From Aeromicrobium erythreum (GTDB taxonomy: Bacteria; Actinomycetota; Actinomycetes; Propionibacteriales; Nocardioidaceae): a DNA stretch of 64,000 bases. This document shows positions 25,764 through 61,190 of the stretch, in pieces. Every line of letters begins with the position of its first letter. Positions within the stretch are counted from its first letter, which is position 1. Below the pieces are notes generated by a model. The model did no database searches. It had not been told where the DNA came from and saw nothing but the letters and a program-made list of their open reading frames with translations. The stretch is taken from positions 2,046,001 to 2,110,000 of the forward strand of contig NZ_CP011502.1 of the NCBI RefSeq assembly GCF_001509405.1, written 5' to 3'. A program made the position numbers and the translations under genes.

Positions 25764-26341
25764 TTACTAGGAACGGCGGCCCTGCTCCCGCGTGGGAGAT
25801 GGGGTGCTGTGCTCGTGCGCGTCGAGTCCGGTGGTCGACACGGGGTCGCCCGGTCCCTGCGGACCGGACGCGAGGGGTGCCGGTGGTCCGGGCGGGCTGG
25901 GGCGTGGTGCCTGGAGCGTCTGGTCCCGCGGCTGCGCAGCGCGACGGGGGTCTCGACCCGCTGGTGCGCTGCCCCGGCCCACGCCGGGGATGGTCTCCGC
26001 AAGGGCCTCGACCGGGCGGCTGGGCGCGCCCTCGGCCTGGGCCCTCGGGCTGTGGCGAGGCTACGGGACGCACGAATCTGCGTTCGCGTGCGGTGGCGCC
26101 AAGGGTTCGGCCTTCGTGACGGGATCCGGACGCGAACGCAGCACCGTCGCGTCGGTGGCACTCAAACGCAGCATCGTGGCATCTCCCCACCCCGTCGCTG
26201 CGCCTGAGGGGCGAGGAGGGGCAGAGGTTCTCCCTTCTCGTGGACCGTGCCACGAGAAGGGAGCATCCTTGCCCGCCGGTCGAGGCCCTTGCGGAGACCC
26301 CTCCGGCGCGGGCTGCGGCAGTGCAGCAGCACGTCGTGGGA
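25764..26341. repeat. intergenic inverted-repeat element, copy A
   Basis: The 588-base gap holds no gene. Outer arms of 24 bases pair perfectly: 25992-26015 with 26276-26299 (they include GGGCCTCGACCGG). Inside is a hairpin whose arms CTCCCTTCTCGTGG (26230-26243) and its complement (26250-26263) enclose ACCGTG, the reverse complement of the CACGGT loop of copies B and D. One unit of the GGTGCGCTGC motif occurs near 25969. The copy is shorter than B-D and its GGGATCCG core is broken. The first 130 bases (25764-25900) show only weak similarity to the family. Confidence 0.8.
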
Positions 26342-37836: not shown

Positions 37837-37866
37837 GCCACGACCCTCCCTCACCCGTCTGACCAC

Positions 37867-38679
37867 CGGGTGTCGCGCCGGTGACCTGCACGTGGCGCAG
37901 GAGGGGGTCTTGGCGTGGCTTGGTGGTGCGCGGCCGCAGGAGGTCTCCTCCTGCTGGTGCGCTGCCGCAGCGGGGTCTGGGCTTGCCGGTGCGCTGCCGC
38001 AGGGGGTCTCGTCGTGATGCTGCGCTGCCTCGGCTGGTGCTGGGGGTGGTCTCCGAAAGGGCCTCGACCGGGCGGGTGGCAGCGGCGCTGGTCTGGGGTC
38101 TCGGGCTGCGGGTTGCGCTCGGGGTGGACGCCGGATTCTGCGTCCGTGTGCGAAAGGCCGAGGATGCTGCGTTTGCTACGGGATCCCGTCACCGACGCAG
38201 AAGCGTTCGACCTTGAGCGCGTGGATGAAGAATTGTGGGTGCACTGTGGGGTCGGGTGGCCAGCGCTTCTCCCTTCTCGTGGCACGGTCCACGAGAAGGG
38301 AGAAGCACTTCCGCCTCTGACCCGCTCAGCGGTGGATCCACCACCTGTACAGCGCTCAGAAGGTGGCAGATCCACCGCCGACTGCGATTCGGTGGCAGAC
38401 CCACCGCCCAGGGGGCAAGAACGCAGAATCGTGCGCCCGCCCCAGCACCGAGCCGCAGCCCGAGACCCCAGACCAGCGCCGCTGCCAGCCGCCCGGTCGA
38501 GGCCCTTGCGGAGCGCAGGACGAGTCGAAGCCGCACCGACGCAGGCCCGTCCGAGCGAGGAGCTGCACCGACGCAGCCGCAGGACGATCACAACGAACAG
38601 GACGGACGAGAAGCCGGCCCCCACCTTCCACCCCACCGCCATGCGGCTGATTCGGTGGCAGGGTCGGCCAACCTCCGGT
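37867..38679. repeat. intergenic inverted-repeat element, copy B
   Basis: An 855-base gap between divergent phoD and the GAF-SpoIIE gene with no credible gene. Arms of 52 bases (38057-38108 and 38456-38507) are inverted copies with one mismatch. Three or four roughly 31-base GGTGCGCTGC-type units precede the left arm (37925-38035). Inside lie the palindrome ACGGGATCCCGT (38178-38189), a 17-18 pair hairpin 38265-38306 with loop CACGGT, and a second hairpin (38330-38380) built from GGTGGATC/GATCCACC. Bases 38600-38679 show no family similarity. Confidence 0.85.
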
Positions 38680-38685
38680 TAGATA
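38680..38685 (+). promoter_or_regulatory. candidate -10 of the GAF-SpoIIE/polysaccharide operon
   Basis: TAGATA, six bases (AATCGT), then ATG 38692, in a short AT-rich stretch at the edge of repeat element B. It has the leaderless layout seen elsewhere in the window; the hexamer's last base departs from T. Confidence 0.45.
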
Positions 38686-38691
38686 AATCGT

Positions 38692-39939
38692 ATGGACGAT
38701 GCTCTCGGGGAGGGCGGGACGCGGACGTTGACCGCGGACCGCGCGACGCCCACCACGACAACCGATCCCGACCGCGCGGTCGAGGCGACCGGGCTCCTCG
38801 ACACTCCCCGCGAGGAGCGGTTCGACCGGTTCACGCAGCTGGCTCGCACCATCTGGGGCGTGCCGATGTCGAGCATCAACCTCTTCGACCACGAGCGGTC
38901 CTTCCTGAAGTCGACCGCCGGCATCGACGGGGTCACCGAGGTCAGGACGAGCGACACGTTCTGCGAGACCACCCGCGAGCACGACGCGCCCCTCGTCGTC
39001 ACCGACGCCGTGGAGGACCCGACGTTCGCCTCACTGCCCACCGTCACCGCCTTCGGGGTCCGCTTCTACGCCGGTCACCCGATCCGCGACCAGCACGGCA
39101 CGACGATCGGGACGCTCTGCCTGTACGACACGAGCCCCCGCGAGTTCGGCGACCACGACCTCACGATGCTCGAGCAGCTCGCGACCTGCGTGCAGGACGA
39201 GGTGCACCTCAGCTCCGACCGCGAGCACGCCACGTCGGTGCAGCAGGCCCTGCTCCCCCGCGGCGTCCCTCCCGTGCCGGGCTACACGTTCGCCGCCACC
39301 TGCGTCGCCACCGGGCTCGTCGCGGGCGACGCCTTCGACCACCGCGAGCTCGAGGGCGGGCACTACGTGCTCGTCGCCGACGTCATGGGCAAGGGCACCG
39401 CCGCCGCCATCCTCATGTCGGCGGTTCGGACCGTCATCCGGGCGGAGATGCGCCGCTTCGCCGAGACCGACCCGGCCACGCGCGGCCACCTGGGCGGTGT
39501 GCTCGAGCGCGCTCGCGACGTCGTCCAGGACGACCTGGAGGCCGCCGAGGCGTTCGTCACCGTCTTCCTCGGCTGGGCCGACCCGCACACCGGCGTCCTG
39601 TCGTTCGTCGACGCCGGCCACGGGCTCTCCGTGGTCGTCCACCACGACGGGAGCACCACGACCCTCGGGTCCGACGACCTGCCGCTCGGTGTCGACGCGA
39701 CGTCCGACTGGCACGAGCAGCGCGTCGAGCTCGCCGCGGGCGACACGTTCGTGTGCTTCAGCGACGGTCTGCTCGACGTCGTCCCCGACATCGAGGTGCC
39801 CTCGGCCGCCGTGAGCCGCCTGGTGGCCGCCACGGGTTCGCCCCACCGGCTCGTGCGCGAGGTCGAGCGGCTCGCCCTCGCCGTGCCCGTGCGCGACGAC
39901 GTGACGGTGCTGGCGGTGCGCAAGGACGCGGCGGAGTGA
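38692..39939 (+). CDS. GAF domain - SpoIIE-type PP2C serine phosphatase
   Basis: A 415-residue cytoplasmic protein. A GAF sensor domain spans about 25-165 (VPMSSINLFDHERSFLKS, GTLCLYDTSPREFGDHDL). The SpoIIE/RsbU-like phosphatase covers about 175-410 with all metal-binding motifs: VAGDAFD, VADVMGKGTAAAILMS, FVDAGHGLSVVV, CFSDGLLDVV and VRDDVTVLAV. Such enzymes dephosphorylate STAS proteins in partner-switching cascades. Two genes downstream is a STAS protein and next to that an RsbW-like kinase, so the substrate is probably encoded in the same operon. Stop overlaps the synthase start as GTGA. Confidence 0.93.
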   Translation: MDDALGEGGTRTLTADRATPTTTTDPDRAVEATGLLDTPREERFDRFTQLARTIWGVPMSSINLFDHERSFLKSTAGIDGVTEVRTSDTFCETTREHDAPLVVTDAVEDPTFASLPTVTAFGVRFYAGHPIRDQHGTTIGTLCLYDTSPREFGDHDLTMLEQLATCVQDEVHLSSDREHATSVQQALLPRGVPPVPGYTFAATCVATGLVAGDAFDHRELEGGHYVLVADVMGKGTAAAILMSAVRTVIRAEMRRFAETDPATRGHLGGVLERARDVVQDDLEAAEAFVTVFLGWADPHTGVLSFVDAGHGLSVVVHHDGSTTTLGSDDLPLGVDATSDWHEQRVELAAGDTFVCFSDGLLDVVPDIEVPSAAVSRLVAATGSPHRLVREVERLALAVPVRDDVTVLAVRKDAAE

Positions 39940-41891
39940 GCTCACCGCTCTGGCAGGTCCGGCTCCTGGTCGTCCTCACGGCCGTCCTCGGGGTCAACTA
40001 CGTCCTCTGGCGCTGGTTCTTCTCCGTCAACTGGCCGGCCTGGTGGATCGCCGTGCCGTTGGTGATCGCCGAGACGTACAGCGTCATCGACTCGCTGCTG
40101 TTCGGCATGACCATGTGGCGCTCGAAGCGACGTCCCGCCCCGCCGGACGCACCGCCCGACGCCACCGTCGACGTCTTCATCACCACCTACAACGAGCCGC
40201 TCGACCTCGTGCAGCGCACCGCCCTGGCGGCCGCCGAGATCCGTCACCCGCACCAGACGTGGATCCTGGACGACGGCAACCGCCCGGAGCTCGCCGCCTG
40301 GGCGGAGCAGCACGGCATCGGCTGCCTGCACCGCACGGCCGACTGGGTCGACCGTCCCCGGCACGCCAAGGCCGGCAACATCAACAACGCGCTCATGGCC
40401 ACGGAGGGTGAGTTCATCCTCATCCTCGACGCCGACCAGGTACCGACCCCCGACATCCTCGACCGTGTCCTCGGCTACTTCGACGACCCGCGCATGGCGC
40501 TCGTCCAGACGCCGCAGTACTTCGTCAACGTCGACGACGCCGACGTGCTCGGCAGCCAGGCGCCGCTCTTCTACGGGCCCATCCAGCAGGGCAAGGACGG
40601 CTGGAACGCCGCGTTCTTCTGCGGCTCGAACGCGGTCATCCGCCGCGAGGCGCTCATGCAGCTCGGCGTCTCGCGCTACGCCGACGAGCTCGAGCGCAGC
40701 GTCCGCACCGCCCTGCGCACGGCCCGAAAGATCGTCGGCCGCGCGCGGTCGGGCATCGAGGAGTCCGACGCCTCCCTGCGCACCCTGCTCGACAGCATCG
40801 ACTACGACGCCCGACGCGCGCTGGGCGCGCTCGACCGCGGCGAGGCCGTCGCCGACGTGACGTTCCGGTTCGGCCTGCGTCTGCGCGACGCCGAGCGCGA
40901 GGTGGCCCGCTCCGACGCGCGGCTGCTCGCCGACGACGTCGCCGCCATCGCCGCCCTCGAGGACGGGCTGTCGACGGACGGCCTGGACGCGGTCGACGTC
41001 GAGGTGCTCGCCGCGACGCTGGAGCGTGACTGGTCGGCGGCCGGGGCGCTCAGCAGCGTGCGACGACTCGTCGACGCGGTCGACGTGTCGCGACTCGACG
41101 AGGCGCAGCCCGTCATGCCGCTGGCGACCATCTCGGTCACCGAGGACATGGCCACCGCGATGCGCCTGCACGGCATGGGGTGGCGCACGGCCTACCACCA
41201 CGAGGTCCTCGCCCACGGTCTCGCGCCCGAGGACATGGCCTCGATGCTCACGCAGCGACTGCGCTGGGCCCAGGGCACGGTCCAGGTGATGTTCCGCGAG
41301 AACCCGCTCGTGCAGCGGGGGCTGTCGTGGCCGCAGCGCCTCATGTACTTCGCGACGATGTGGAGCTACCTGTCCGGCTTCGCCGCCATCGTCTACATCG
41401 GCGCACCGGTGGTCTACCTGATCCTCGGCGTGCTGCCCGTGCAGGCCCTGAGCAGCGACTTCTTCATCCGCCTCGTGCCGTTCCTGGTCGTGAACCAGCT
41501 CTTGTTCTTCGTGGTGGGGCGCGGGGTGAAGACCTGGCGCGGCCAGCAGTACTCGCTCGCGCTGTTCCCGGTCTGGATCAAGGCGTTCACGTCGGCCTTC
41601 GGCAACGTGTTCCGCGGCCGCGCGCTCGACTTCGCCGTGACGCCGAAGGTCGTCACGCCCACCGAGGGACGTCCCCGCTGGGACCTCATCAGGCCGCAGC
41701 TGATCGCCATGGGCCTGCTCGTCGCGGCTCTCGTCATCGGCGGCATCCGCCTCGCCGTGGGTCAGGCCCAGCCGCTGGGTACGGCACTGAACGTGGTGTG
41801 GGTCGTGTTCGACCTCGTCATCCTGAGCATCATCATCCGGGCCGCGCGGTACCGCGGCAGCGCATCGGTCGAGGAGAGGACCCCCGCATGA
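39936..41891 (+). CDS. cellulose-synthase-like family 2 glycosyltransferase with large helical insertion
   Basis: A 651-residue membrane beta-glycan synthase. Two helices at the N-terminus (about 4-55), the GT-A domain, then about four C-terminal helices. Catalytic motifs are DDGN (near 112), DAD in LILDADQVPT (near 164), TED in ISVTEDMATAM (near 400) and QRLRW (near 440). Between FFCGSNAVIRREAL (near 228) and the TED motif are about 170 residues, roughly 140 more than in BcsA, predicted charged helix (RYADELERSVRTALRTARK and on). There is no C-terminal PilZ domain, so cyclic-di-GMP control of the usual kind is missing. GTG start is coupled to the phosphatase gene. The polymer made cannot be named. 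Confidence 0.9.
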   Translation: MSSPLWQVRLLVVLTAVLGVNYVLWRWFFSVNWPAWWIAVPLVIAETYSVIDSLLFGMTMWRSKRRPAPPDAPPDATVDVFITTYNEPLDLVQRTALAAAEIRHPHQTWILDDGNRPELAAWAEQHGIGCLHRTADWVDRPRHAKAGNINNALMATEGEFILILDADQVPTPDILDRVLGYFDDPRMALVQTPQYFVNVDDADVLGSQAPLFYGPIQQGKDGWNAAFFCGSNAVIRREALMQLGVSRYADELERSVRTALRTARKIVGRARSGIEESDASLRTLLDSIDYDARRALGALDRGEAVADVTFRFGLRLRDAEREVARSDARLLADDVAAIAALEDGLSTDGLDAVDVEVLAATLERDWSAAGALSSVRRLVDAVDVSRLDEAQPVMPLATISVTEDMATAMRLHGMGWRTAYHHEVLAHGLAPEDMASMLTQRLRWAQGTVQVMFRENPLVQRGLSWPQRLMYFATMWSYLSGFAAIVYIGAPVVYLILGVLPVQALSSDFFIRLVPFLVVNQLLFFVVGRGVKTWRGQQYSLALFPVWIKAFTSAFGNVFRGRALDFAVTPKVVTPTEGRPRWDLIRPQLIAMGLLVAALVIGGIRLAVGQAQPLGTALNVVWVVFDLVILSIIIRAARYRGSASVEERTPA

Positions 41892-42217
41892 CCGACATCC
41901 ACGTCGCCCACACCGAGCGCGGGATCGGGGTCGTCACCCCGGTCGGCCGGCTCACGATGGTCGTCACCCGCCAGCTGACCGAGGCCATCACCGGCCTCGT
42001 CGACGGGGGGACGTCCAAGGTCGTCGTCGACCTGGGCGAGACGACGTTCCTCGACTCCTCCGGCCTGGGTGCGCTCATCGCCGGTCTCAAGCGGTGCCGC
42101 CAGGCCGGCGGCGACCTGCGGCTCGCCCGACCGACCGAGCAGGTGACGACCGTCCTGTCGCTCACCAACCTCGACCGCGTGCTCCGACCGCGTGCCTCGG
42201 TCGCGGAGGCGTTCTGA
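41888..42217 (+). CDS. STAS domain protein (anti-sigma-factor-antagonist type)
   Basis: A 109-residue SpoIIAA/RsbV-like protein. The phosphorylatable serine is in FLDSSGLGALIAGLKRC (near 58). It would be phosphorylated by the kinase-like neighbour and dephosphorylated by the SpoIIE protein at the operon start. ATG overlaps the synthase stop by four bases. With no sigma-factor gene adjacent, its output could be the synthase itself or a distant sigma factor. Confidence 0.93.
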   Translation: MTDIHVAHTERGIGVVTPVGRLTMVVTRQLTEAITGLVDGGTSKVVVDLGETTFLDSSGLGALIAGLKRCRQAGGDLRLARPTEQVTTVLSLTNLDRVLRPRASVAEAF

Positions 42218-42642
42218 TGGCCGACATGCACAGCGTCGACCTGGTGCTGGAGGCCGTCCCCGAGCAGGTCGACACGCTGCAGGACGAGATCGCCCAGCTC
42301 TGGGAGAGCGTCCCGTCGGTGTCGACGACCGACCGGGTGCGGTTCGAGATGGCGCTCGTCGAGATCTTCGCCAACATCGTGGAGCACAGCGTCCGCCACC
42401 ACCCCGGCCCTCCCCTGCGCCAGGTGACCATCCGGCTCGACGTGTCCCCCGGGCTGGTCGAGGCGCGGTTCGCCGACGACGGCCGTCCGGTGGGGCTCGA
42501 CCTGAGCGACGTGACGATGCCCCCGCCGGACGCCGAGGACGGTCGCGGGCTCGCCCTGACGATCGCCGCCGTCGACGCCCTGGCCTACGAGCGCGAGGGC
42601 GACATCAACCGGTGGACGGTGACCTGCCGGAGGAGCGGGTGA
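42217..42642 (+). CDS. RsbW-like ATP-binding serine kinase / anti-sigma factor
   Basis: A 141-residue GHKL ATPase-fold protein. N box EMALVEIFANIVEHS, G1 box FADDGRPVGLDL and G2 box EDGRGLALTIAAVDAL are present, so ATP binding looks intact. It should phosphorylate the STAS partner and bind either it or a target. ATG overlaps the STAS stop (TGATG). Confidence 0.92.
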   Translation: MADMHSVDLVLEAVPEQVDTLQDEIAQLWESVPSVSTTDRVRFEMALVEIFANIVEHSVRHHPGPPLRQVTIRLDVSPGLVEARFADDGRPVGLDLSDVTMPPPDAEDGRGLALTIAAVDALAYEREGDINRWTVTCRRSG

Positions 42643-45080
42643 TCCTGCGGCGTCTGCTCCTCACGGCGCTCGTCGGGCTCCTCCCCCTCCTGGGCGGAGC
42701 ACCCGCCCAGGCCGCCGACGTGGTGCCGACGCCGACGGACGGTCCCTACGTGGGGCCCATGCTCGACTGGACCCGTGACTCTGCCGACGACTACGCCGAC
42801 CGGCTCGGCGTCTCGCCGTCGGTCTACGCCCAGAAGGTGCGTTATCCGCTCGACCGTGACGACCGCCTGTTCCTGCGCCAGTTCGTGCAGCAGACCGCCG
42901 CGCACGGGGCGATCGCGCAGCTCACCCTCGAGCCGCGGGTCCCGCTGGACCAGCTGACCGCGGCTGACGCTCGCGCGGTCGGCGAGCAGCTGCAGACCCT
43001 CCACGAGCAGCTCGACACCGACTTCGTCGTCCGGTTCGCGCCGGAGATGAACGGCACGTGGACCGCGTGGGGGCAGCAGCCCGAGGCGTACAAGGCAGCG
43101 TTCCGCGAGGCTGCCCGAGGGATCGCGTCGCGGACCGACGCCGTCGAGATGGCCTGGGTCCCGGTGTACGGCGCCGGCTACCCCTTCGGTCGGGCCTATG
43201 GCTCCATCCCCGGCTCCGCGCCGCGGCCCGTGGGGCAGCTCGACACCGACGACGACGGTCGGGTCACCGAGGCCGACGACCCGTACGGTCCGTACTGGCC
43301 CGGCGCCGACGTCGTCGACCGGGTCGGGCTGGTCATGTTCCGGTTCGGCCGGGCCCAGCCGTTCGGCACCGACTCCGTCCCCGCCCCCGACGAGCTCGTC
43401 GCCCGTCTGCAGGAGCGCTACGGCTACGACGACGACACCCGACGTCGTCCGTTCTACGACCGCTTCGCCCGCGACGGACGCTCGATGTCGCTGGAGACCG
43501 CAGCGGCCTGGTACGACCGCGGCGACGTCGACGAGCTCGCCGTGAAGTCGGCCTGGTGGGACCAGGTCTTCTCCCCCGCCGTCCGGTCCGCCTACCCCCG
43601 CCTCGACCTCGTCACCTGGCTCGAGCAACGTCGGCGCGAGGACGAGGCCGACGGTCGCGAGACCGACTGGCGGGTGACGTCGCGACCCGAGCTCGCCCGA
43701 CCGTTCGAGGCGGTACTGCGCACCGGGGCGACGACCGGCGCCGTCACCCGGGTGGTCGACCAGGACGTCGCGAACGAGTCGACGGCCGAGTACCGGCAGG
43801 CCGACCCGGCCGACGGCGACCCCATGGCCTGGATCGTCGGCTGCGTCGTGCTCGCCGCCCTGCTCTTCGTCGGCTCGGGCCTGGTGCGTCGTGTCGCACC
43901 GTCGTGGCGCTACCCCGACGACGGCGGGCTGCGCGACGGCCGGGTCGACTTCCTGCGCGGCTGGGTGATGGTGACGGTGGTCGTCGTCCACACCGAGCTG
44001 GCCGGCCCGTACTCGTTCCTCAGCCGCAACGCGATCGGGGCCATCACCGGGGCCGAGATGTTCGTGCTGCTGTCCGGACTCGTGCTCGGGATGGTCTACC
44101 CGCGGGCCGTCGAGCGCGTCGGCGAGCGGGCCGCGTCGGCGGCAGCCTGGGCCCGTGTGCGCAAGCAGTACCTGACGGCCCTGGGCGTCGTCGTGCTCGT
44201 CTACCTCATCGGACTGGTGCCGGGCATCAGCGCCACGGTCGTCACCACGTTCACCGACCGCGGCACGGGCACGGGCGGCGGGGCCGCGGCGGGCCAGGTG
44301 TACGACCTCTACGCGAACTTCCCGCAGCTGCTCGCCTACCCGCCTCCCTGGTACGCCGTGCGAGGGCTGCTGCTCCTGGAGATGGGCCCCTGGGTCTTCA
44401 ACATCATGGGGCTGTTCGTCGTGCTCTCGGCCCTGGTGCCGGCCCTCATGTGGCTGCTGCGTCGACGACTGTGGTGGCTCGTCCTGGTCATCTCCTGGAC
44501 CCTCTACGGGATCGAGGCCGTCACCAAGGCGTCCGTCCTGCCCTCGCAGTTCGACGCCGTGTTCCCGCTGCTCAGCTGGCAGCTGCCCTTCCTGCACGGA
44601 CTCGTGATCGGCTACTACCGCCGCCCGATCACCCGGGCGCTGACGAGCCGGCGCGGCGTCGCGGTCGTCACGACTCTCGTCGTGGGGTACGCGGTGGTGC
44701 TCACGACGTTGTGGGCGACGCAGGGCGCGCCGTTCCTCGGGATCGTGCGCTACGACTGGCTGTACGAGAACCTCTACCAGCGCATCTACCTGCAGCCGGG
44801 GCGGCTCATCGACCTGCTGCTCGTGCTGGTCGTCGCCTACGCGCTGCTCACGGCCGCGTGGAAGCCGCTGAACCGCGTGTTCGGCTGGTTCTACATGCCG
44901 ATCGGCGCGGCCAGCCTCTACGTGTTCATCGTGCACGTCTTCTTCGTCGTGGCCGTCGCCAACATCCCCGGCCTCGACCGCACCAGCCCGTGGCAGGGCG
45001 CCGTCGTGCACACCGTCGAGCTCGGGCTGATCTGGCTGATGGTGCGCCGGCGCTTCCTGTTCAAGGTGATCCCGACCTGA
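42639..45080 (+). CDS. secreted GH26-like glycoside hydrolase fused to OpgC-type membrane acyltransferase
   Basis: An 813-residue fusion. A signal peptide (about 1-25, ending APAQA-AD) exports a (beta/alpha)8 GH26-like domain (about 27-370). The acid/base motif is VVRFAPEMNGTWTAWG (Glu near 136), and a likely nucleophile Glu lies in RSMSLETAAAWYD (near 284). From about 397 on there are ten or so helices of the OpgC/acyltransferase-3 kind (DFLRGWVMVTVVVVHTE, ITGAEMFVLLSGLVLGM). The product would trim a beta-mannan-like or mixed glycan outside and add acyl groups. GTG start is coupled to the kinase gene, making it the fifth gene of the operon. Confidence 0.88.
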   Translation: MILRRLLLTALVGLLPLLGGAPAQAADVVPTPTDGPYVGPMLDWTRDSADDYADRLGVSPSVYAQKVRYPLDRDDRLFLRQFVQQTAAHGAIAQLTLEPRVPLDQLTAADARAVGEQLQTLHEQLDTDFVVRFAPEMNGTWTAWGQQPEAYKAAFREAARGIASRTDAVEMAWVPVYGAGYPFGRAYGSIPGSAPRPVGQLDTDDDGRVTEADDPYGPYWPGADVVDRVGLVMFRFGRAQPFGTDSVPAPDELVARLQERYGYDDDTRRRPFYDRFARDGRSMSLETAAAWYDRGDVDELAVKSAWWDQVFSPAVRSAYPRLDLVTWLEQRRREDEADGRETDWRVTSRPELARPFEAVLRTGATTGAVTRVVDQDVANESTAEYRQADPADGDPMAWIVGCVVLAALLFVGSGLVRRVAPSWRYPDDGGLRDGRVDFLRGWVMVTVVVVHTELAGPYSFLSRNAIGAITGAEMFVLLSGLVLGMVYPRAVERVGERAASAAAWARVRKQYLTALGVVVLVYLIGLVPGISATVVTTFTDRGTGTGGGAAAGQVYDLYANFPQLLAYPPPWYAVRGLLLLEMGPWVFNIMGLFVVLSALVPALMWLLRRRLWWLVLVISWTLYGIEAVTKASVLPSQFDAVFPLLSWQLPFLHGLVIGYYRRPITRALTSRRGVAVVTTLVVGYAVVLTTLWATQGAPFLGIVRYDWLYENLYQRIYLQPGRLIDLLLVLVVAYALLTAAWKPLNRVFGWFYMPIGAASLYVFIVHVFFVVAVANIPGLDRTSPWQGAVVHTVELGLIWLMVRRRFLFKVIPT

Positions 45081-54109: not shown

Positions 54110-54919
54110 GGGACGGCGGGGCGGACGCCACGCCGGGGTTGGGGGTGGGGGTGCTGCCGCAGGGGGTCTCGACCTGCTGGTGCGCTGCCTGCGGGAGTCT
54201 CGACCCGCTGGTGCGCTGTCGCAGGAGGTCTTGACCCGCTGGTGCGCTGCCTCGGCGTTCGCTCGGTGTGGTCCCCGAGAGGGCCTCGACCGGGCGGCTG
54301 GCACCGCACTGGTCTGGGGTCTCGGGCTGTGGCTTCGGCACGGGGTCGACGCAAGCTTCTGCGTTCGTGTGCGGGAGGGCAAGGCTTCTGCGTTGCCTAC
54401 GGGATCCCGTCGTGGACGCAGAGGCCTTCGGCCTCGAAGGCGCGAACGCAGAGTCGTGAGCGCTCTTTGCGTTGGGGAGACGCAAGATTCTGCGTTCGCG
54501 TGGAACGGTCCACGCAAAAGCAGAATCTTTCCGACGCGGCCCCCCTATCGGTGGATTCTCAACCGCAGAAGCGCTCCTGCAGTTGAGAATCCACCGATAG
54601 AACGCGCAAACGCAGAACCGTGGCCCATGGACGCAGCATCGAAGAATCGTGCGTCACCCACAGACCCAAGCCAGACCCCGAGACCCGAAACCAGCCCCAG
54701 GCCCGCTGCCGGTCGAGGCCCTTTCGGAGACCACCCCCAGCGAAGGCCGAGGCAGCGCACCAGCAAGGTCACGACGACCGCAGGCAGCGCAGCACCAGGT
54801 CACGACCCCCGCAGGCAGCGCACCAGCAGGTCGAGACCCCCTGCGGCAGCGCAGCAGCAGGTCACGATCCCCCGCAGGCAGCGCAGCAACGAGCCACGCC
54901 CCCGCACGGGACCCCGACG
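54110..54919. repeat. intergenic inverted-repeat element, copy C
   Basis: An 832-base gap with no gene. Left arm 54269-54293 and right arm 54709-54733 are inverted copies around GGGCCTCGACCGG. Tandem GGTGCGCTGC-type units lie outside the left arm (54150-54265), and inverted GCAGCGCACCAGC-type units lie outside the right arm (54750-54900). Inside are ACGGGATCCCGT (54399-54410), a hairpin 54484-54529 with GATTCTGC/GCAGAATC and CGTGG/CCACG stems, and a perfect 19-pair hairpin with arms 54545-54563 and 54582-54600. Stem sequences differ from copies B and D but pairing is kept. Confidence 0.85.
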
Positions 54920-60403: not shown

Positions 60404-61190
60404 GGGGCTTGGTGGTGCGCTGCCGCAGGGGGTCTCGTCTTGCTGGTGCGCCGCCTGCGGGGGGTCTGGGCTTGCTGGTGCGCTGCCTGCGGGGGGTCTC
60501 GTCGTGCTGGTGCGCTGCCGCGGGGGGTCTCGTCGTGCTGGTGCGCTGCCGCGGGGGGTCTCGTCGTGCTGGTGCGCTGCCCCGGGGGGTCTGGGCTTGC
60601 TGGTGCGCTTCCTCGGCTCGTGCTGGGTGTGGTCTCCGAAAGCGCCTCGACCGGGCGGCTGGGTGGCGCGGCGGCTCTGGTTCTCGGGCTGTGGCCTTCG
60701 TTGGACGCAAGATTCTGCGTTCGTGCGTGGGGGGCCAAGGCTTCTGCGTCTACTACGGGATCCCGTCACCGACGCAGAAGCGTTCGACCTTCAGCGCACG
60801 AAGGAAGAATCGTGGGTGCCCTTGGGGGTGGGGTGGGCAGCGCTTCCCCCTTCCCGTGGCACGGTCCACGAGAAGGGGGAACCTCTGCCACGTCTGGCCC
60901 CGTCGGCGGTGGATCCTCCACCTGTACAGCGCTGAGAAGGTGGCAGATCCACCGCCGACGACGATTCGGTGGCAAACCCACCGCTCGACCCTCAACACCG
61001 ACCCGCAGCCCGAGACCCCGGACCAGCGCCGCTCCCAGCCGCCCGGTCGAGGCCCTTGCGGAGCGCAGGACGAGTCGAAGCCGCGGCAGCGCAGCCCCAC
61101 CCCAGCAGAGAGCCGCGCCGACGCAGCCCCACCCCGAGTCGAAGCCGCATCAGCGCAGCCCCTCCCGAGAGAGAAGCCGCGCCGACGACG
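60404..61190. repeat. intergenic inverted-repeat element, copy D
   Basis: An 887-base gap without a gene. Left arm near 60636-60663 and right arm 61034-61061 are inverted copies (CTCGACCGGGCGGCTGGG and complement). Inside are ACGGGATCCCGT (60755-60766), the CGTGG-CACGGT-CCACG hairpin (60844-60881, one C-A mismatch where copy B is perfect), and a GGTGGATC/GATCCACC hairpin (60908-60957). Outside the left arm is a seven-unit tandem array. Bases 61080-61190 show GCAGCGCAGCCCC-like units pointing the other way. Confidence 0.85.
60414..60640 (+). repeat. 31-32-base tandem array within element D
   Basis: Seven degenerate units start at 60414, 60445, 60477, 60509, 60540, 60571 and 60602. Each opens GGTGCGCTGCC and ends TCTCGTCGTGCT or TCTGGGCTTGCT. 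There are no unique spacers between units. Confidence 0.85.

Follow-up and report, generated by a model that had tools for sequence, protein, structure and literature searches.

What does a partner switch control when its genes surround that of a polysaccharide synthase? The textbook role of such switches is to regulate sigma factors; in them, RsbW-type kinases phosphorylate serines of STAS-domain proteins and PP2C phosphatases reverse the modification. The question is raised by an operon of Aeromicrobium erythreum located in the stretch of DNA analyzed here (the window, 64,000 nucleotides of a complete 3.63-Mb genome; tests across the organism's own genome are targeted searches). Five plus-strand genes span positions 38692–45080 with successive overlaps of 4, 4, 1, and 4 bases and encode, from 5' to 3', a GAF-SpoIIE/PP2C phosphatase, a BcsA-like GT2 synthase, a STAS protein, an RsbW-like kinase, and a GH26-OpgC fusion protein; no sigma factor gene adjoins them. 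An initial annotation of this DNA had described the same layout, with overlaps of 1–4 bases, intact PP2C, STAS-serine, GHKL, and GT2 motifs, no adjacent sigma gene, and a synthase lacking a PilZ domain, and each of these features was borne out. Comparison of related sequences suggests that this conserved synthase-switch operon turns polysaccharide production on and off, and that the switch probably acts on the enzyme itself.

Homologues of the synthase were found in 44 of the 246 genomes of the order. Among the closest 80 matches listed, the top named relative is that of Aeromicrobium sp. CnD17-E (98% identity), and the named carriers include many genomes of Nocardioides, Clavibacter, Curtobacterium, Arthrobacter, Williamsia, Prescottella, and Geodermatophilus. 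When synthases at least 98% identical were collapsed, 112 non-redundant loci remained, in 75 of which the phosphatase, GT2, STAS, and RsbW genes are contiguous; 72 of these share the order of the window, and the other three have the order GT2-STAS-RsbW-phosphatase. Four more loci have GT2-STAS-RsbW without a contiguous phosphatase gene, bringing that three-gene arrangement to 79 of the 112. The contiguous four-gene unit occurs in Nocardioidaceae, Clavibacter, Arthrobacter, Williamsia, Prescottella, and Geodermatophilus, so that the gene order, for which a search across actinobacterial genomes had been proposed, is present in several families and is not unique to this genome, a uniqueness that would have spoken against the interpretation in the initial annotation. 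The genes that flank the operon in the window are near few of 90 four-gene loci (3 in the case of the upstream neighbor and 11 in that of the RelA-like and Apt-like genes downstream); because the flanking genes vary while the four genes stay, it is the unit itself that is kept together. No plasmid-borne copies of the operon were found.

The components of the switch have the sequence features of an RsbU/V/W-type partner-switching module. The phosphatase matches the Pfam families GAF (6e-17) and SpoIIE (4e-33), and its PP2C motifs in the window copy are DVMGKG, DAG, SDG, and RDD; the aspartate motifs (DVMGKG, DAG, SDG, DD) are kept at about 93–97% in 92 sequences. The STAS protein matches its Pfam family (6e-18) and scores 63.1 bits against TIGR00377, above the cut-off of 53.45, and Ser57 is kept in 98% of 95 sequences. 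The only other STAS protein of this type in the genome, at C1:2923134-2923421 (L223), is more distant (84 bits) and appears BldG-like by eye. The kinase matches HATPase_c_2 (2e-13), its profile has RsbW as top PDB match (1.3e-9), and across the family the N-box Asn is kept in 96% and the G2 box in 99–100%. The input domain of the phosphatase is more variable, being GAF in 8 of 10 copies examined, a receiver domain in an Arthrobacter copy, and MASE1 in L081, a variety that resembles an exchangeable sensor placed on a fixed switch. The proposal that the GAF domain is the input suits the window copy, in which this domain is present, but GAF is inessential to the family, since a receiver or MASE1 replaces it elsewhere.

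Features of the synthase-switch operon, in window coordinates
Feature	Position	Strand	Basis
Input phosphatase: GAF (residues 40–165) and SpoIIE/PP2C (223–410), metal motifs intact	38692..39939	+	Pfam, motifs
BcsA-like processive GT2 synthase, 651 residues, GTG start, no PilZ	39936..41891	+	Pfam, motifs
Helical insertion in the GT domain of the synthase, about 150 residues (245–396)	40668..41123	+	BcsA alignment, AlphaFold models
STAS protein, 109 residues; presumed phospho-acceptor Ser57 in FLDSSGLGAL (codon 42056–42058)	41888..42217	+	Pfam, motif
RsbW-like serine kinase, 141 residues; N box EIFAN, G1 DDG, G2 GRG	42217..42642	+	Pfam, motifs
GH26-OpgC protein, GTG start: signal peptide (by eye), GH26-like domain (about 30–400), OpgC acyltransferase (432–804)	42639..45080	+	

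The synthase matches Cellulose_synt / Glycos_transf_2 in Pfam and does not match PilZ. It contains the catalytic motifs of its family, Asp112-Asp113, Asp165-Ala-Asp167, Thr402-Glu-Asp404, and Gln440-x-x-Arg443-Trp444 (DDG, DAD, TED, and QRLRW), together with the gating-loop motif FxVTxK (Phe566, Val568, Thr569, Lys571), and the D, DxD, TED, QxxRW, and gating motifs are invariant across 42 aligned orthologues. The score against the NCBIfam CelA model is 355.7 bits, far under the cut-off of 699.1. Its structural model superposes on Escherichia coli BcsA with a Z score of 35 and 32% identity, and the alignment ends just before the PilZ region, the PilZ domain of BcsA presumably beginning where the synthase model ends. 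No PilZ domain was found in the synthase or anywhere in the 3.63-Mb genome, although six GGDEF domains are encoded there, and with these present the earlier proposal that the switch replaces control by cyclic di-GMP is a tentative one. Residues 9–244 and 397–634 of the synthase align with BcsA, and the intervening stretch is an insertion that follows the first half of the GT domain and precedes the TED motif. The insertion is all-helical in the AlphaFold models and, when folded alone, the block formed by its first three helices has predicted local distance difference test (pLDDT) values mostly of 81–98. It is present in every synthase that has adjoining switch genes, and none of 21 insertion-less actinobacterial GT2 homologues has such a phosphatase, STAS, or RsbW gene within about 7 kb. 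Among the loci examined, no switch protein is fused to a synthase.

The reading that we favor, with a little more confidence than doubt, is that the operon encodes a partner switch dedicated to, and acting at the protein level on, a cellulose-synthase-like β-glycan synthase that has no PilZ/cyclic di-GMP module. When the GAF domain senses a signal, the PP2C phosphatase would become active and dephosphorylate the STAS serine; when the signal is gone, the RsbW-like kinase would phosphorylate this serine again, and the phosphorylation state of the STAS protein would set whether the synthase runs. In the most likely version, the unphosphorylated STAS protein, or the STAS/kinase pair, would dock on the insertion beside the catalytic domain and permit movement of the gating loop, filling the role that PilZ has in BcsA. 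By analogy with SypA and SiaC, discussed below, the synthase would be on when the STAS protein is dephosphorylated. The parts of this reading differ in strength: action at the level of the enzyme is rather likely, contact through the insertion has about an even chance, and the view that the contacting partner is the STAS protein and not the kinase is tentative.

The canonical role of RsbU/V/W-type proteins would instead have the phosphatase-STAS-RsbW trio control a distant sigma factor that transcribes the synthase operon. The window genome does encode two divergent SigB-like sigma factors, at G000:C1:303-305 kb (L091), but no RsbW, STAS, or phosphatase gene lies beside them, and the pattern GTTT-N13-18-GGGTA has no match in the window. 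Further, in five genomes that carry the four-gene unit (G045, G130, G138, G146, and G169), the SigB/F/G model has strong full-length matches only in SigA and in one paralogue that is SigA-like; the remaining matches are short or weak and of extracytoplasmic function (ECF)-like character, and the customary partner of RsbW was thus not found there. Since module carriers without a SigB-type sigma factor exist, such a factor is not the universal target; the presence of a SigB/F/G sigma factor in every carrier fails as a general rule, though not for the window genome. We consider transcriptional control of this kind improbable.

It is also conceivable that the switch is merely co-transcribed with the synthase and controls some other enzyme or a second messenger. 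In five Arthrobacter-group genomes the phosphatase-STAS-RsbW trio is located away from the synthase (L213, L214, L217–L219), and the separation in the Arthrobacter agilis group counts in favor of this reading. However, the gene order is kept across families while the flanks change, and the GT2 with the full insertion and the operon-type STAS protein occur in the same 41 of the 246 genomes of the order, with no operon-type STAS in the other 205 (0/205) at the threshold used. The 41/41 co-occurrence includes one unlinked case, genome G192, in which 1.4 Mb separate the synthase (L071) from the trio (L220). That this genome and the five of the Arthrobacter group retain the trio even where it is unlinked, and that four Curtobacterium genomes likewise retain a distant STAS-RsbW pair, speaks for the favored reading. 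The STAS serine and the insertion also degenerate together, as described below, and on these grounds mere co-transcription is regarded as very improbable. Curtobacterium seemed at first to have lost the STAS protein, and the Arthrobacter agilis group all of the regulators, but in both cases the genes have been relocated.

Two loci, L086 and L087, are informative with respect to direct contact. The kinase and phosphatase genes are absent beside the synthase, and the STAS gene lies between those of the synthase and the GH26 protein; the STAS phospho-acceptor is missing (LPSGL or AASGL stands in place of DSSGL), and the insertion, at 113 residues as compared with about 154, is about 41 residues shorter. 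Of the natural variation, this joint change gives the best hint that switch and synthase are in direct contact, although both loci may represent one lineage, and it favors the STAS protein as the contacting partner. The arrangement in four Curtobacterium genomes favors the kinase: one intact RsbW gene adjoins that of the synthase, a STAS-RsbW pair is located elsewhere, and no phosphatase gene was found near these switch genes. It fits a mechanism in which the RsbW-like kinase binds and inhibits the insertion, as RsbW does with sigma-B, and is removed by unphosphorylated STAS protein. The same logic is seen in RsbW itself and in Moorella, where the switch kinase MtT attenuates the cyclase MtG (PMC7647112). 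However, at L086 and L087 the synthase adjoins a STAS gene but has no neighboring RsbW gene, and the STAS protein is better conserved than RsbW (mean identity 0.59 versus 0.40); we regard inhibition by the kinase as an unlikely alternative.

It should be recognized that, besides the SigB-like genes of the window genome and the Curtobacterium arrangement, several results weigh against direct gating of the synthase through its insertion. A Foldseek search of the insertion against the PDB gave generic helical bundles only, with nothing significant. The association of insertion and switch is confounded by phylogeny, as enzymes with the insertion seem to form a single clade, and the GT2-STAS co-occurrence is for the most part a reflection of operon linkage. 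In the mirror-tree analysis, many pairs of operon proteins remain correlated once the synthase core has been controlled for, and the insertion-STAS pair is not singled out; the correlation with the insertion is as strong for the GH26 control as for the switch proteins, and therefore contact is not readable from the mirror-tree. Mutual information, at an effective number of sequences (Neff) of about 48, gave the highest inter-protein enrichment for STAS-RsbW, as expected for a known interface, and insertion-STAS was not above core-STAS. Finally, the G1 (ATP) box of the kinase is degenerate in an Arthrobacter/Planctomonas group (L131, L157, L160; L136, L137; L213, L214, L217–L219), in copies that keep the STAS serine and phosphatase motifs intact.

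The last gene of the operon bears on the nature of the product. The OpgC_C domain is clear (171.3 bits against a cut-off of 21.4; 4e-50). The GH26 assignment of the initial annotation holds at the level of the family, in that PF02156 is matched by 20 of 23 relatives (best 1.2e-12) and the presumed catalytic glutamates, Glu136 and Glu286, are both present in the window copy; however, the window protein alone, at 17.0 bits, is just below the Pfam cut-off of 20.2, and some lineages seem to be catalytically altered. One or both glutamates are missing (E136Q, E286D/Q/S) in L141, L163, and L173 (Curtobacterium) and in L060, L063, L067, L129, and L137, suggesting that the domain may have a glycan-binding rather than a hydrolytic role in these lineages. 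The best PDB match of the GH26 profile is endoglucanase H (3e-8), which we take to be the GH26 lichenase CtLic26A; given the BcsA-like fold of the synthase and this lichenase-like domain, it is plausible that the polymer is a β-glucan. The GH26-OpgC protein would trim or bind the polymer outside the membrane and acylate it. Taken as a whole, the earlier interpretation, that STAS phosphorylation switches glycan synthesis, is partly supported: it gains from the conservation across families, the absence of a SigB-type sigma factor in some carriers, and the association of insertion and switch, and is qualified by the dispensability of GAF and by the weak GH26 score of the window copy.

The intergenic DNA just upstream of the operon (37866–38690) is a copy of a dispersed repeat of 600–800 bp (70–80% identity), which contains a long inverted repeat with 129-nucleotide arms at 38020–38148 and 38416–38544. 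There are four copies in the 64 kb, the others being at 60406–61131, 54134–54888, and 25918–26336, and the element is also found at L223:1048-1632 and upstream of the operon in near relatives.

A search of the open literature, with most subscription papers outside its reach, revealed no paper in which a cellulose-synthase-like enzyme is the direct target of a STAS protein or partner switch, and no prior description of this operon was found in the open literature. Because the switch and its presumed target share one operon, and carriers without a SigB-type sigma factor exist, the question of the STAS target is directly testable here. If the favored reading is true, a cellulose-synthase-like enzyme would be gated independently of cyclic di-GMP in soil and plant-associated actinobacteria. 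The wider possibility, to which we give somewhat less than an even chance, is a class of actinobacterial synthases without PilZ but with a helical docking domain, gated directly by a serine-phosphorylation switch with exchangeable sensors, so that the output is a glycosyltransferase and not a sigma factor.

The module resembles the RsbU-RsbV-RsbW and SpoIIE-SpoIIAA-SpoIIAB systems in its PP2C phosphatase, its STAS protein with a DSSG serine, and its GHKL kinase with N, G1, and G2 boxes, but differs in that the operon contains no sigma factor gene, five carriers have no SigB/F/G sigma factor, and a glycan synthase is the constant companion. The synthase is like BcsA in fold, catalytic motifs, and the FxVTxK gating motif but differs in lacking PilZ, in having the helical insertion, in scoring under the CelA cut-off, and in belonging to an operon without BcsB. 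Partner switches have been tied to polysaccharides before. In Nostoc, HmpU/V/W form a switch, of unknown output target, that is encoded within a locus for hormogonium motility and polysaccharide (PMC8256260); the likeness is drawn from its description. In Vibrio fischeri, control of polysaccharide biofilm by phosphorylation of the SypA STAS serine extends beyond transcription of the syp genes (PMC4517449, PMC8256260), which makes the SypE-SypA precedent cited in the initial annotation an apt one. However, the target of SypA is unknown (PMC4517449), SypE is a single bifunctional kinase/phosphatase, and syp is an 18-gene locus. The Pseudomonas SiaABCD system is mechanistically closer: according to one account (PMC7647112, citing Chen et al.), the diguanylate cyclase SiaD is encoded in one operon with a PP2C phosphatase, a kinase, and the switch protein SiaC, which binds SiaD directly and activates it. 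As described there, SiaABCD differs from the present module in that the target is a diguanylate cyclase and that SiaC is phosphorylated on a threonine, Thr68.

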